Assembly: GCA_019694295.1 (NCBI GenBank)
Contig: JAIBCG010000004.1
Span: 1 to 64,000, forward strand
Length of the DNA: 64,000 bases
Direction of reading: 5' to 3'
From: Saprospiraceae bacterium
GTDB lineage: Bacteria > Bacteroidota > Bacteroidia > Chitinophagales > Saprospiraceae
The notes beneath the pieces were generated by a model. The model worked only from the letters and a program-made list of their open reading frames with translations, was not told the origin of the DNA and made no database searches. This document shows positions 3,224 through 31,394 of this stretch, one piece after another. Position 1 is the stretch's first letter. Each line of letters begins with the position of its first letter. Both the position numbers and the translations under genes were made by a program.

Positions 3224-3931
3224 ATGAAAAAAGTAATAGCAATAACCGGAGCAACCAAGGGAATAGGCAGGGCGATAGCTGAAAAATTTGCACAAAACGG
3301 CTATCATGTAGCTGTTTGTGCCAGAAATAAAGAAGACCTTAAGCAAATGGCTATATACTGGACAGAACATTATCCGGAATCCGAAATTTTTACATTCAGG
3401 GCGGATGTCAACAGTAAAGTGCAGCTGCAGGCTTTTGCTAATCATCTACTTGCAAGGTTTCCGGTAGTGGATGTAGTGGTCAACAATGCAGGTGTGTATT
3501 TTCCGGGTGAAGTGCTGACAGCCGACGAAGGGACACTGGAGAAAATGATGGAAGTCAACCTGTACAGTGCCTATAATTTTACGCGGATGTTGATGCCGTC
3601 ACTCAAAAAGCAGCCGGCAGCGCATATATTTAATATGTGCAGTATAGCAAGCATTCTTGCATACCCTAACGGGGGTGCTTATAGTATATCGAAGTTTGCC
3701 TTGCTTGGTTTCTCAAAATGCCTGCGCGAAGAACTCAAGGATTCAACCATAAAAGTAACTGCAATATTGCCGGGGGCTACCTGGAGCGATTCATGGGCAG
3801 GAGCCGATTTGCCCGTAGAGCGCCTGGTGCAGGCAGCGGATATTGCCGATACGGTGTATGCTGCAAGCCAGCTGGGTAAATCAGCAGTCGTAGAAGAAAT
3901 AATTATCCGGCCTCAGCAAGGCGATCTTTAG
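3224..3931 (+). CDS. Short-chain dehydrogenase/reductase (SDR)
   Basis: Classical SDR of 235 residues using NAD(P). Rossmann motif TGATKGIG (8-15), NNAG (87-90) and the catalytic set Ser140, Tyr153, Lys157 (YSISK) are present. I chose the ATG at 3224 because the Rossmann strand VIAITG follows at once; an upstream in-frame start at 3149 would add 25 residues unlike the family. The substrate is unknown; it resembles the cytosolic 3-oxoacyl-ACP reductase-like group. It is convergent with fabG, from which it differs clearly, so this is not a recent duplication. Confidence 0.85.
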   Translation: MKKVIAITGATKGIGRAIAEKFAQNGYHVAVCARNKEDLKQMAIYWTEHYPESEIFTFRADVNSKVQLQAFANHLLARFPVVDVVVNNAGVYFPGEVLTADEGTLEKMMEVNLYSAYNFTRMLMPSLKKQPAAHIFNMCSIASILAYPNGGAYSISKFALLGFSKCLREELKDSTIKVTAILPGATWSDSWAGADLPVERLVQAADIADTVYAASQLGKSAVVEEIIIRPQQGDL

Positions 3932-3993
3932 TTTTAAAATAAAATATACTTTCTTGTATGCTTGTTGTCATACAATGTAAGTAATTGGATATT

Positions 3994-4737
3994 CTACACG
4001 TTGAGTCCGCCACAGATGCTGATGACCTGCCCGTTGATGTAAGAAGACATGTCTGAACCTAAGAAAACACATAAGTTTGCTACTTCTTCAGCAGTGCCGT
4101 ATCGCTTCATAGGTATGCCTGATAGAAAAGCTTCTTTTGTTTTTTCATCGAGCTCGCCGGTCATTTCTGTATCGATGAATCCGGGAGCAATCACGTTGGT
4201 ACGGATGTTTCTTGAGCCGACTTCTTTGGCAATGGACTTTGAAAAGCCGATGATACCAGCTTTGGATGCTGCATAATTGGCCTGGCCGGCATTGCCAAAC
4301 ACACCAACTACAGACGACATGTTGATGATAGAGCCGCCAGTGCGCAGCATCGCCTTCATGCAGTGTTTGGTAAGGTTAAATACCGATTTGAGGTTTGTGT
4401 GTATTACCTCATCCCATTGTTGTTCCGACATCCGGAGCATCAACGTATCACGTGTAATGCCTGCATTGTTTATTAAAATATTCACCGGGCCTAGGTCGGT
4501 CTGCACTGCAGCTACCAAATCTCCGGCTTGTTTGAAATCGGCAGCATCACTCTTATAGCATTCGGCTTTGACACCCAAGGCACGAAGTTCATCACGCAAT
4601 GCTTCGGCTTTAGTTGCCGACGACACATAAGTAAATGCAACATTGGCACCTTGTTCGGCAAATTTTTTAACGATAGCAGCACCTATTCCGCGGCTTCCTC
4701 CTGTGATGAGTGCATTCTTACCTTCCAGTAGTTTCAT
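3994..4737 (-). CDS. fabG: 3-oxoacyl-[ACP] reductase FabG
   Basis: NADPH-dependent reduction of 3-oxoacyl-ACP in fatty acid elongation. From the preferred ATG (MKLLEGK) the protein has 247 residues, the usual FabG length. Motifs: TGGSRGIG (12-19), NNAGITRD, Ser142, Tyr155 and Lys159 (YAASKAG), and the FabG-type end PMKRYGTAEEVANLCVFL...INGQVISICGG. An in-frame ATG six codons upstream (4755) is possible but adds a tail foreign to FabG. It stands alone here; fabH and accBC are about 13 kb away. Confidence 0.9.
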   Translation of the reverse strand: MKLLEGKNALITGGSRGIGAAIVKKFAEQGANVAFTYVSSATKAEALRDELRALGVKAECYKSDAADFKQAGDLVAAVQTDLGPVNILINNAGITRDTLMLRMSEQQWDEVIHTNLKSVFNLTKHCMKAMLRTGGSIINMSSVVGVFGNAGQANYAASKAGIIGFSKSIAKEVGSRNIRTNVIAPGFIDTEMTGELDEKTKEAFLSGIPMKRYGTAEEVANLCVFLGSDMSSYINGQVISICGGLNV

Positions 4738-4834
4738 GTTGTGGTGTTTTTTCAAGGCTAAAGTACGATTTTTCTTCAGTTTTTGATAAAAATTGAAGGA
4801 AGTAAAATATTTTTTAAAAAAATTAAAAAAACAT

Positions 4835-4866
4835 TTTGTTTATAAATACAAGTTGTTTTATATTTG
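4835..4866 (+). promoter_or_regulatory. Promoter of the membrane-anchored HTH gene
   Basis: TTTG at 4835-4838 and TATATTTG at 4859-4866 are separated by 20 bp, an excellent -33/-7 match. Predicted start near 4872, giving a 34-nt leader to the ATG at 4906. Confidence 0.65.
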
Positions 4867-4905
4867 CATTGATAAAAACATTTTACAATTAAAAAGCATT
4901 AAATT

Positions 4906-5178
4906 ATGAAGAAGTCAAGCATCATCAGGTTATTTATCATTGGATTATTGGCAGTTTTGTTTGTATTGCCTTTGAGGTCACAGTTTCAGTTACCTTCCAA
5001 TGAAGGTGTTGGATATAGGGTCAAGCAGTTAAGGCAGTCGTATCAACTAACAACTGCTGAGCTTGCAAAATATACAGGCCTTAGCAAACAGTATCTCGAA
5101 GGTATAGAATGTGGAAAATATGCAGTCGGTGATACCGAGTCACGAATCATTTCAGAGTATTTTGGTCAGGAGTTGTAA
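4906..5178 (+). CDS. Small protein with signal anchor and XRE-type helix-turn-helix
   Basis: 90 residues in two parts. Residues 1-25 are KKSS followed by the hydrophobic stretch IIRLFIIGLLAVLFVLPL and then RSQ, which reads as a signal peptide or membrane anchor. Residues 35-88 look like a Cro/CI-type HTH: RVKQLRQSYQLTTAELAKYTG, LSKQYLEGIECGKYAV, then a short helix. XRE domains normally bind DNA in the cytoplasm, so an export-type N-terminus directly in front is odd. If it is an uncleaved N-in anchor the HTH would be periplasmic; if inverted, it would be a membrane-tethered regulator. A strong promoter precedes it and a strong terminator lies about 300 bp downstream. Family unknown to me. Confidence 0.7.
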   Translation: MKKSSIIRLFIIGLLAVLFVLPLRSQFQLPSNEGVGYRVKQLRQSYQLTTAELAKYTGLSKQYLEGIECGKYAVGDTESRIISEYFGQEL

Positions 5179-5384
5179 TCGTGTTTCAGGGTTTACTTGT
5201 TATTAGATTACCGGTCTGTTTTTGAAGAAAAGATTGTGGGACATGGCAGGTAAGGGTATAAAAGAATGTACTGATGTCATTTTGAGTCTTTCAAGTTGTG
5301 GTTAATTATTGACTGAGTTTTGTTTTAGATAAACAGAGTTTTTGTAATGTGGGATGGGGCAGAAGTAATGTTAAAATTTGGCAT

Positions 5385-5506
5385 TACATTTGCTTGGTAT
5401 TGGTTACTTATTAGAAGAAACATGTATATGTTAAGATAAAAATTAACAAACTTCTGAGATAACCACCAAACCCATCCCCACAGGTTACAACCTTTGGGGA
5501 TTTTTT
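5385..5506 (+). ncRNA. Candidate ~110-nt small RNA or attenuated leader
   Basis: A -7 motif TACATTTG (5385-5392) predicts a start near 5398. A nearly perfect hairpin ends the unit: ATCCCCA-c-AGGTT, 2-nt loop, AACCT-t-TGGGGAT followed by six T (5474-5506). Between them is only a 5-codon frame (ATG at 5420). No -33 TTG is visible at the right distance, which weakens the promoter. The hairpin could instead simply end the mRNA of the HTH gene 300 bp upstream. Confidence 0.3.
5474..5506 (+). terminator. Strong intrinsic terminator
   Basis: Stem ATCCCCA/TGGGGAT extended by AGGTT/AACCT with one internal C/T mismatch and a 2-nt loop, then TTTTTT. Only the + strand copy is followed by a T-run, so it acts on + transcripts. 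Confidence 0.75.
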
Positions 5507-5626
5507 GTGTGTACTGCTCCCTTTACATCCATCTTCAGGTTCTGTTATGTGATAGGACAAATATTTACCGATAGGTAAAAATATGGGCAGATTTTTTATA
5601 CAGGCAGGTAGGGTTCGCAAGTTGAG

Positions 5627-5730
5627 CACACAGGTTAGGAGCATAATTTATGAACTTAGGTTAAGAATACAGATTAATAACTCAGGTTAGCAACCCAGGT
5701 TAGTAACTCAGGTTAGTAACTCGGGTTAAA
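5627..5730. repeat. 13-bp tandem repeat, 8 degenerate units
   Basis: Exactly 104 bp = 8 x 13. The last four units are closest to the consensus AACTCAGGTTAGT (5679-5691, 5692-5704, 5705-5717, 5718-5730); upstream units (5653-5665, 5666-5678 and the two before) are more diverged. 13 is not a multiple of 3 and the array crosses stop codons, so it is not a protein repeat. Confidence 0.75.
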
Positions 5731-5800
5731 TTTTGAGAGTGTGATTTGGTGGCGACTTTTAGCGGCTGAATGTTGGTTGTAATGATTTTCAGGCATTGCT

Positions 5801-5825
5801 TGTAGTGTAGTGTAGTGTAGTGTAG
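5801..5825. repeat. TGTAG pentanucleotide microsatellite (x5)
   Basis: Five perfect tandem copies of TGTAG in non-coding DNA, about 300 bp downstream of the stop codon of the minus-strand barrel gene. Such tracts change copy number by slippage, but no gene start lies close enough for an obvious phase-variation role. Confidence 0.8.
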
Positions 5826-6129
5826 CGGTGTTAGTGCTACTCACCGACTGAGGCCAGGTTATTTTTTGTTCGGATGGTAGAGTATTGATATAGCCTTAAA
5901 GATTATTGACTATGAGTATCCGGTGTATTGTTTGATAGTCAGATACCTCAAAGGTATTTATATAGCAGAGAATGAATGGTCAGAACGGTAATTTGGTCTT
6001 GTATCTTCAATCAAATACACGTGGCAAGTTGAGTCAAGAATAAAAGTTCAGAGCATAAAATTCAAAGCTTGATACAAAGCCGCAGCCATAGAAAGCTTTG
6101 GTATATGAGCACTGAATGGATGATTATAA

Positions 6130-7008
6130 TTAGAACTGGAAACCAAGCATGAATTGTAGCGCAAAATTACGGTCAAAATCATTTCGCTTGATAAATTTGC
6201 CAGCGTCAAGTTTTTGTAATGAGATATCGTATGTTTCGCGACTTACATCTTTAAGGCCATAATACATATTAGCGCCAAGATAAAGTGAACTGTTGAAATA
6301 GTAAGCAAGACCTAGCAAGGCTCCAAGATCAAAGCTTTCATAGTATCCGCCGGATTTTTCTGTAAAGTTTTCGTAGGCATTCAAGATGCTCCGAGTAGCT
6401 ATGGCTTCGGTGTTCAGGTTAAAGTTTACCGGATTGCCGGCTATGGAGCCGATTTTGTCACTCCCGTAGTTATAGTCGAGCTCTTGTACGAGTGTATTGT
6501 CTTTTAAAGTGGTAGTACCGTTGAATACATGCTTTATTTCGCCTGTTCCTGTTGATGAAATGAGAAAGCCAGGGCTGATGCCGGCTGATATTTCTATTTT
6601 TTTGAAGAGTTTGGCATACAAGCTCACGGGCAATTGGATATAGCTGTTGAAGGTGTTCAGATTATATCGTTTGTAGCCGGTGGTAACAATTGGCTTAGAG
6701 TCAATAGTGGTAAACTTTTGATATGCATTTTGCGATTCGAATAGTCTTCTACCTCCGTTGATACTGTATTGGAGCTCCACTCGCGCGCCAAATATATTGT
6801 TAAATGGAAAGCCGGCATTGACACCAACCAGAAAGCCTGTATTGTTACTGAATTTTTCGAGTGTATTTCCGTCGTTGTCTGTTTCGGCAGGACCAAGGAA
6901 TCTGGAAGCATTTAGTCCGGCTTTAAAGCCAAGTTTGAATGGCAATTGCGCTTGGGCGAAATTGACAGAAATCAGCAAGATACAGACAACAAACAGATTT
7001 TTTTTCAT
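6130..7008 (-). CDS. Outer-membrane beta-barrel protein (OMP_b-brl/PorT-like)
   Basis: 292 residues with a cleavable signal peptide (MKKNLFVVCILLISVNFAQAQ) and then alternating amphipathic strands typical of an 8- to 12-strand barrel: GFKAGLNASRF, GFLVGVNAGFPF, ARVELQYSINGG, YIQLPVSLYAKL and a last strand FALQFMLGFQF ending in Phe, the usual outer-membrane assembly signal. The family (outer membrane protein beta-barrel domain) is abundant in Bacteroidota and mostly of unknown function. On the minus strand a TATCTTTG motif (7028-7035) about 20 bp upstream of the ATG probably is its -7 box. It is divergent from rlmN. Confidence 0.8.
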   Translation of the reverse strand: MKKNLFVVCILLISVNFAQAQLPFKLGFKAGLNASRFLGPAETDNDGNTLEKFSNNTGFLVGVNAGFPFNNIFGARVELQYSINGGRRLFESQNAYQKFTTIDSKPIVTTGYKRYNLNTFNSYIQLPVSLYAKLFKKIEISAGISPGFLISSTGTGEIKHVFNGTTTLKDNTLVQELDYNYGSDKIGSIAGNPVNFNLNTEAIATRSILNAYENFTEKSGGYYESFDLGALLGLAYYFNSSLYLGANMYYGLKDVSRETYDISLQKLDAGKFIKRNDFDRNFALQFMLGFQF

Positions 7009-30624: not shown

Positions 30625-31359
30625 TCAGATTTCTGATATTTTTCTGATTACTTTGTAGATTCTGGTAAACTCATTCACTTCTTCTTCAAATGGGTCGTGT
30701 TCAAAATGATTGGCTGATATGAGCTTCAAATGTGTGACCCTGCCGGATGAATCAGTCATTTTTTTAATGTATTTTACCCAAAGAGAACCATTGGCTTTTA
30801 TGGCGTAGATTTCATTTTCCTTAATATTGTTTATCGAATTTACTTCACGACACACAACAATATCGCCATTCTGAATCACTGGCTCCATGCTGTTTCCTTT
30901 TATTGGGAATGCTACAAGGCCTGTACCTGACACACCCGGAATGGAAAAGCTATCGAATTCTTCACGCTCGAAGCTGCCCTGCCCAAGTGTAGAACCTGCG
31001 AATGCTTCAACAGTAGTATAAAGTATGTTGGCCTTGGTACCGGCATCAGGCAAATGCAGCCCTGGGGTGGTAAGCTCTATGCCAAAAGGTGCGCCCTTTC
31101 CTTCAAGCAAATACTTTTCATTAATACCGTATTCCTGACAGATGAGCCTGGCATGGTGATAGTCGATAACGCGTTTATCATCAGGATTCAGAAATGCCCT
31201 AACGATGTGGCCATATCCCTTATTGCCAAGAATGCGCTCAGCAAAATCCTTCATTCCCTTACCATCGCGGTCATTTTTCTTTATCACACCACGCTCTTCA
31301 AGGAGCGTAAAAACTTTGATGAATCGCTCATTAAGCAGGATACGGTCAGGCGTTATCAT
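30625..31359 (-). CDS. LexA/CI-like repressor with S24 peptidase domain
   Basis: 244 residues from ATG 31359 (a TTG six codons upstream is in frame). N-terminal ~90 residues: a putative DNA-binding head, helical with RILGNKGYGHIVRAFLNPDDKRVIDYHHARLICQEYGI. C-terminal S24 domain: Ser157 in KGNSMEPVIQNGDIVV and Lys196 in LWVKYIKK form the Ser-Lys dyad, and FAGST at 120-124 gives an Ala-Gly bond where LexA and CI cleave themselves. So SOS-type self-cleavage is plausible. The -7 box TATATTTG (31395-31402) sits upstream. It is divergent from parA across 246 bp, which may hold its operator. Confidence 0.8.
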   Translation of the reverse strand: MITPDRILLNERFIKVFTLLEERGVIKKNDRDGKGMKDFAERILGNKGYGHIVRAFLNPDDKRVIDYHHARLICQEYGINEKYLLEGKGAPFGIELTTPGLHLPDAGTKANILYTTVEAFAGSTLGQGSFEREEFDSFSIPGVSGTGLVAFPIKGNSMEPVIQNGDIVVCREVNSINNIKENEIYAIKANGSLWVKYIKKMTDSSGRVTHLKLISANHFEHDPFEEEVNEFTRIYKVIRKISEI

Positions 31360-31394
31360 AATCTTATTTATAAACAATTATTTGAATAATGTTG

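Follow-up and report, generated by a model that had tools for sequence, protein, structure and literature searches.

A 90-residue protein encoded in the window, the 64,000-nt stretch of DNA analysed here, which sits in a 3.08-Mb draft genome, is on balance probably a secreted periplasmic module of the XRE fold that would bind a protein or an envelope component, and not a transcription factor. The ORF runs from ATG to TAA on the forward strand. Its product consists of MKKSSIIR, a hydrophobic run to L23, the residues R24-S25-Q26, an eight-residue linker and a Cro/CI-type HTH domain. The ORF and its export-like N-terminus, the fold, the conservation of the promoter and a shift in net charge are all read from the sequence. 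The features of the gene are as follows.

4906-5178, forward strand: 90-aa gene for a putative signal peptide and a Cro/CI HTH (ORF; PF01381, 26.7 bits; congener orthologue with 52% identity)
4906-4980, forward strand: predicted signal peptide, residues 1-25, with n-region MKKSSIIR, h-region 9-21 and c-region PLRS (hydropathy, conservation, Q-rule sample)
4981-4983, forward strand: Gln26 codon, predicted N-terminus after signal peptidase I and pyroglutamate by the Q-rule (LxSQ kept in the congener; rule as given in a part of PMC5837995)
5008-5175, forward strand: XRE/Cro-CI HTH domain, residues 35-90 (Pfam, AlphaFold2 helices, Foldseek)
5086-5109, forward strand: third HTH helix, at the recognition-helix position, residues 61-68 (AlphaFold2 secondary structure)

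The identification of the HTH domain is safe. In Pfam, PF01381 (HTH_3) matched residues 39-87 of the window protein with 26.7 bits, above the cut-off of 23, and the congener protein with 33.2 bits. The AlphaFold2 model, for which the input was a two-row alignment, had a mean pLDDT of 76.8, with pLDDT of at least 90 across 43 residues and block means of 90-94 in the HTH region (blocks 41-90). Its helices at residues 31-45, 50-57, 61-68 and 76-86 give a compact all-helical XRE fold. The best PDB fold matches in Foldseek included C.AhdI, C.BclI, HipB, ClgR and SinR with a probability of 1.00 and E-values of only about 0.006-0.05, which are weak taken alone because the domain is short. The Pfam score over the cut-off, the predicted fold and the structural matches agree with the initial annotation, which had placed an HTH domain in a protein of 90 residues. 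The HipB/Y4mF antitoxins, C.AhdI and C.BclI resemble the window protein in HTH fold and size, but they are cytoplasmic DNA binders. TIGR03070 (HipB/Y4mF) scored 23.8 bits on the window protein against a cut-off of 71.65, and inspection of the neighbouring ORFs by eye revealed none that looked like a toxin or restriction gene. The protein also showed a weak sequence resemblance to RamB-type NF038139.

The hydrophobic segment ending in RSQ, likewise described earlier, was confirmed: residues 9-23 have a mean Kyte-Doolittle value of 3.04 and run into P22-L-R-S-Q26. The positive charges K2, K3 and R8 of the n-region lie ahead of the segment, and the h-region is short, about 13-15 residues, with P22 at its end. 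The LxSQ end is conserved in both orthologues, as LPLRS followed by Q26 in the window protein and as LPLPSQ in the congener. With a basic n-region, an h-region and a small residue followed by Gln, the window protein has the features of a Q-rule substrate, and according to a part of PMC5837995, Gln is the residue exposed in the majority of Bacteroidetes proteins cleaved by signal peptidase I. A sample of 98 ORFs of at least 120 aa, from the window and four stretches of the same genome, contained 37 ORFs with an N-terminal h-region; [ASGTC]Q was found in 25 of these and a lipobox in 4, and SQ, as in the window protein, was present in some of them. This sample supports the prediction that the segment is a cleaved signal peptide, a call based on hydropathy and the Q-rule, with residues at -3 (Leu) and -2 (Arg) of the site that are less typical than A-x-A. 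Following the positive-inside rule, a positive n-region directs the HTH outward.

The same segment might remain uncleaved and act as a signal anchor that holds the HTH at the inner membrane's outer face. R24 at -2 could lower cleavage, and 6 of the 36 proteins of a second exported family, described below, start with a hydrophobic stretch for which no clear cleavage site was recognised, but the shortness of the h-region, its end at P22 and the LxSQ kept in both orthologues make an anchor unlikely. For the window protein we infer export, cleavage, a periplasmic site and a function other than DNA binding. Its N-terminus would take it through Sec, signal peptidase I would cut between Ser25 and Gln26, and Gln26 would probably be cyclised to pyroglutamate. 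In the periplasm, the mature product of 65 residues would then be a Cro/CI-fold domain on its own, which would most likely serve as a protein- or envelope-binding module with its DNA-binding role lost or never used.

Homologues of like architecture were sought in 398 family genomes, and the sole full-length one among the matches listed was the gene of the congener, which encodes 93 aa (contig JAEUUM010000306.1, Saprospiraceae, locus L009/L068; L009:1489-1770, reverse strand) and is 52% identical from residue 1. The genus comprises two genomes in the collection, and the gene is present in both. The congener protein starts with MKK and retains the ATG, the frame, the hydrophobic segment and the HTH domain, and the first 78 nt of the two genes show no indels. 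The window and congener genes differ at codon positions 1, 2 and 3 by 11, 9 and 17 substitutions in the signal part and by 16, 15 and 36 in the HTH part, respectively; taken by itself, the surplus at position 3 of the signal part (17 of 37) is weak. When 37 substitutions were placed in the 78 nt as in the congener, in 200,000 simulated variants, the frame was open in 17.8%, the frame was open and residues 9-23 were free of K, R, D, E, H, N and Q in 0.65%, and 0.11% additionally attained the hydropathy of the congener. The hydrophobicity of the segment is retained beyond chance.

Homologues beginning downstream of the segment were also sought and none was found. Other than the congener gene, which begins at the equivalent ATG, no full-length homologue appeared among the matches listed for the 398 family genomes (to about 8e-6) or in two contig scans. 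The two-row profile matched 246 of the 398 family genomes at E ≤ 0.001, and besides the two orthologues the matches listed covered chiefly the HTH, mostly inside frames of XRE proteins of about 500 aa, or crossed stop codons. A mis-assigned start was rejected because the sole full-length homologue found keeps the ATG, the hydrophobic segment, the LxSQ end, the HTH and the conserved promoter. The evidence from conservation is thin, with two orthologues among 398 family genomes in the matches listed.

The promoter that the initial annotation had assigned to this gene was found again in the congener. The elements upstream of the ATG are given below.

4829-4866, forward strand: promoter, with TTTG at 4835-4838, 20 nt and TATATTTG at 4859-4866 (sequence, congener block, consensus as given in a part of PMC6847099)
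4829-4841, forward strand: palindrome AAACA-N3-TGTTT, a possible operator and one of a pair (0 mismatches, identical in the congener)
4846-4858, forward strand: second palindrome, 17 bp from the first (1 mismatch; congener counterpart without mismatch)

The arrangement of TTTG, 20 nt and TATATTTG fits the Bacteroidetes consensus TTTG/TANNTTTG presented in that part of PMC6847099. The congener carries this promoter block almost unchanged, and conservation is higher here than in the coding sequence. A sigma-70 scan missed this promoter, as is expected in this phylum. Both palindromes overlap the promoter and could be operators, bound either by the window protein or by a different regulator; they form the chief reason to consider that the protein binds DNA in the cytoplasm. 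In that role, the product would start at the TTG of codon 23 or stay in the cytoplasm and would be an autorepressor of the divergent fabG/HTH promoter, and the hydrophobic stretch would be untranslated or a by-product. A divergent gene pair is an arrangement typical of autoregulators, the two palindromes are kept in the congener, and the TTG at codon 23 is present in both orthologues; in the window gene it lies at the end of the segment and is the sole ATG, GTG or TTG between the segment and the HTH. We nevertheless regard such an autorepressor as doubtful, since the ATG, the open frame, the hydrophobicity and the LxSQ are kept across 78 nt and the operator-type motif AAACANNNTGTTT, taken singly, was not enriched genome-wide, with 12 sites versus 22 for the reversed control. 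With these counts, the motif was rejected as the operator of a regulon. The base at -3 also argues against a start at codon 23: it is A for the ATG and C for the TTG, and in Flavobacterium johnsoniae, according to a part of PMC6847099, initiation is favoured by A at this position.

Two neighbouring genes are shared with the congener.

3994-4737, reverse strand: fabG-like short-chain reductase, divergent neighbour, also beside the congener gene
6130-7008, reverse strand: barrel-like protein of outer-membrane type (by eye) that itself carries a Q-rule signal, FAQAQ; a neighbour in the congener too

In both genomes, the HTH gene is divergent from fabG and the gene for the barrel-like protein adjoins it. 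Among 30 fabG loci, 28 of them from other genera and with the window's own locus (L069) left out as evidence, only the congener locus had a sequence matching the window protein in the 1.5 kb upstream, and fabG was rejected as a shared ancestral neighbour. Downstream of the HTH gene, a stretch of about 950 bases without a recognised gene contains 4.5 copies of the 13-bp tandem repeat CAGGTTAGTAACT at 5653-5728 and 5 copies of the 5-bp repeat TGTAG at 5801-5825. A hairpin-like ATCCCC...GGGGAT followed by a T run at 5470-5510 was terminator-like by eye and was not reported by the scan that also missed the promoter. In the same genome, locus L108 carries an apparent duplicated pair of secreted-protein genes with near-identical Q-rule signal peptides (2-1510 and 3404-4936, with 1544-2668 and 4965-6095).

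A second group of exported HTH proteins in the Saprospiraceae, the PTRDII type, is represented by a weak match to the window protein (G034, 34% identity), a 92-aa protein with the lipobox LSSC ahead of its XRE domain. The G034 protein used as query matched 167 of the 398 family genomes at E ≤ 0.001, with ordinary XRE proteins among the weaker matches. Among these matches, 30 loci were read, together with the flanks of 20 of them, and 36 non-redundant proteins scored above 45 bits with the family HMM (L099_980, a duplicate of L149_7380, was left out). In every one of the 36, a hydrophobic segment at the N-terminus precedes the XRE domain, and the sites comprised 21 lipoboxes, 9 signal peptidase I sites of the xAQ type and 6 cases without a clear site, where the classes of L152_5158, L143 and L158 (lipobox) and of L161_2915 (no site) were settled by eye. 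Three proteins, L165:6075-6440, L157:5981-6271 and L163:6009-6317, have a hydrophobic start without lipobox or xAQ and are possibly anchored HTH proteins. Both forms occur in tandem at several loci, for example L149, L150, L151, L152, L153, L155 and L156, and L161 has two HTH genes, one of them with a signal ending in AQ.

An S24 repressor and a glucosaminidase, as cluster proteins whose identity was checked by Pfam on two members each, were present in 16 and 15 of the 20 loci, respectively, and the gene maps show the S24 and HTH genes in divergent orientation. Loci L149, L150, L151, L152 and L153 share one layout: a divergent S24 repressor, a glucosaminidase whose enzyme domain follows a hydrophobic segment, a lipoprotein HTH and a periplasmic-type HTH. 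The latter carries a TYEEAVxLLTA linker and is followed by a gene which we take to be RlmH-like. No NCBIfam model scored over its cut-off for either HTH form. This gene content suggests that the locus may be an envelope module around a peptidoglycan hydrolase. The family alignment matched 285 of 395 phylum genomes at E ≤ 1e-5; in the 30 best phylum loci no hydrophobic N-terminus before the HTH was found, and all were ordinary XRE proteins, many of them short and HipB-like or long.

The window protein resembles the PTRDII-type proteins in its small size and in having an export signal directly before the XRE domain. However, those proteins mostly carry the motif PTRD and, at the C-terminus, EIxLD, are acidic, are encoded beside glucosaminidase and S24 genes and form a clade of their own (98/96), whereas the window protein has AVGDTESRIISEYFGQEL in place of the PTRD motif and the EIxLD tail, and its neighbours are fabG and the barrel-like protein. 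With the family HMM it scored 22.9 bits, at rank 119 of 124 counted from 0 (congener 120), below cytoplasmic-type XRE domains. Membership of the window protein in this family was rejected by motif, HMM rank and tree. The presence of a PTRDII module in its own genome was rejected as well: the lipoprotein of the second family had no match there, and the two glucosaminidases lie elsewhere and have no HTH partner in the stretch read. An S24-like protein of this genome (window 30625-31377, reverse strand) shares only 32% identity with the family's S24 repressor; its gene adjoins a ParA-like gene, and none of the ORFs listed next to it encodes an exported HTH.

The nearest HTH domains to that of the window protein, by HMM and tree, are those of the XRE regulators of about 500 aa in Saprospiraceae; no relative was found on viral contigs or plasmids. 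In a tree of 66 domains and 58 columns, with rows gathered by similarity to one or the other query and 22 of the 36 exported-family domains included, the window pair grouped with the long XRE domains (97/94) and the exported PTRDII family formed its one clade. This topology, drawn from few columns, supports but does not prove a separate origin of the two groups, and because the window gene falls in a different clade, export seems to have arisen at least twice. The grouping with the regulators would also be seen if the window gene were a decaying fragment of one of them after a hydrophobic stretch, or no working gene, but this is highly improbable, as the two genes differ most often at third codon positions, the promoter has been conserved and a clean full-length frame exists in both species.

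The regulators are long and have a basic HTH, whereas the window protein has 90 aa, a signal peptide and a net charge of 0. The domain net charge was 0 in the window and congener proteins and +1 to +8 in the long XRE domains (n = 42), so that the window and congener values lie below all 42. The HTH domains of the exported family had a mean charge of -2.2 (n = 36) versus +3.3 for other XRE domains (n = 76, in part checked for an N-terminal signal), with a Mann-Whitney p of 2.7e-12 that is only a guide for sequences related by descent. Net charge was 0 or less in 13 of the 76 non-exported domains and above 0 in 4 of the 36 exported ones; rows of fewer than 45 residues and identical domains were dropped from these counts. 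A periplasmic or extracellular DNA-binding protein, acting in DNA uptake or on matrix DNA, would agree with the intact HTH fold, but the net charge of 0, below that of every long relative, and the acidity of the second exported family render it improbable.

The initial annotation left two readings, a DNA binder tethered to the membrane and a domain put to a use other than binding DNA. We favour reuse and not the tether, because the n-region charge, the short proline-ended h-region and the Q-rule site point to a cleaved, periplasmic product, because the net charge is unlike that of the cytoplasmic relatives, and because an independent Saprospiraceae family of HTH proteins with lipoprotein signals or signal peptides exists. 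RodZ provides a likeness, in that its Cro/CI-type HTH has a role other than DNA binding. RodZ binds MreB, and its HTH is N-terminal and cytoplasmic, ahead of a membrane segment; the order in the window protein is reversed, with the hydrophobic segment followed by the HTH. ToxR and CadC likewise combine a domain of DNA-binding type and a membrane segment in one chain; in these proteins, the DNA-binding domain is of the winged type and lies at the N-terminal end, in the cytoplasm.

As a tentative reading, less probable than the periplasmic role of the window protein itself, the Saprospiraceae may have moved the Cro/CI fold to the cell envelope at least two times. One move, in this genus, would have given a free secreted domain, and the other a widespread and often tandem pair, lipoprotein and periplasmic, which might regulate or activate the adjacent membrane-anchored peptidoglycan glucosaminidase, and the operon would be under the control of the divergent S24 repressor. 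No exported Cro/CI HTH family was found in the open-access literature, a scope that is no proof of absence, and in parts of PMC11237479 and PMC12419801 HTH domains are said or implied to be cytoplasmic.

The Cro/CI HTH, among the best-studied DNA-binding folds, is taken as a mark of gene control in the cytoplasm. If a recurring, conserved exported set exists, the annotation "transcriptional regulator", given by domain name, would be wrong for those proteins. The fold would then have a function in the envelope, and the link to glucosaminidase would give a first target.
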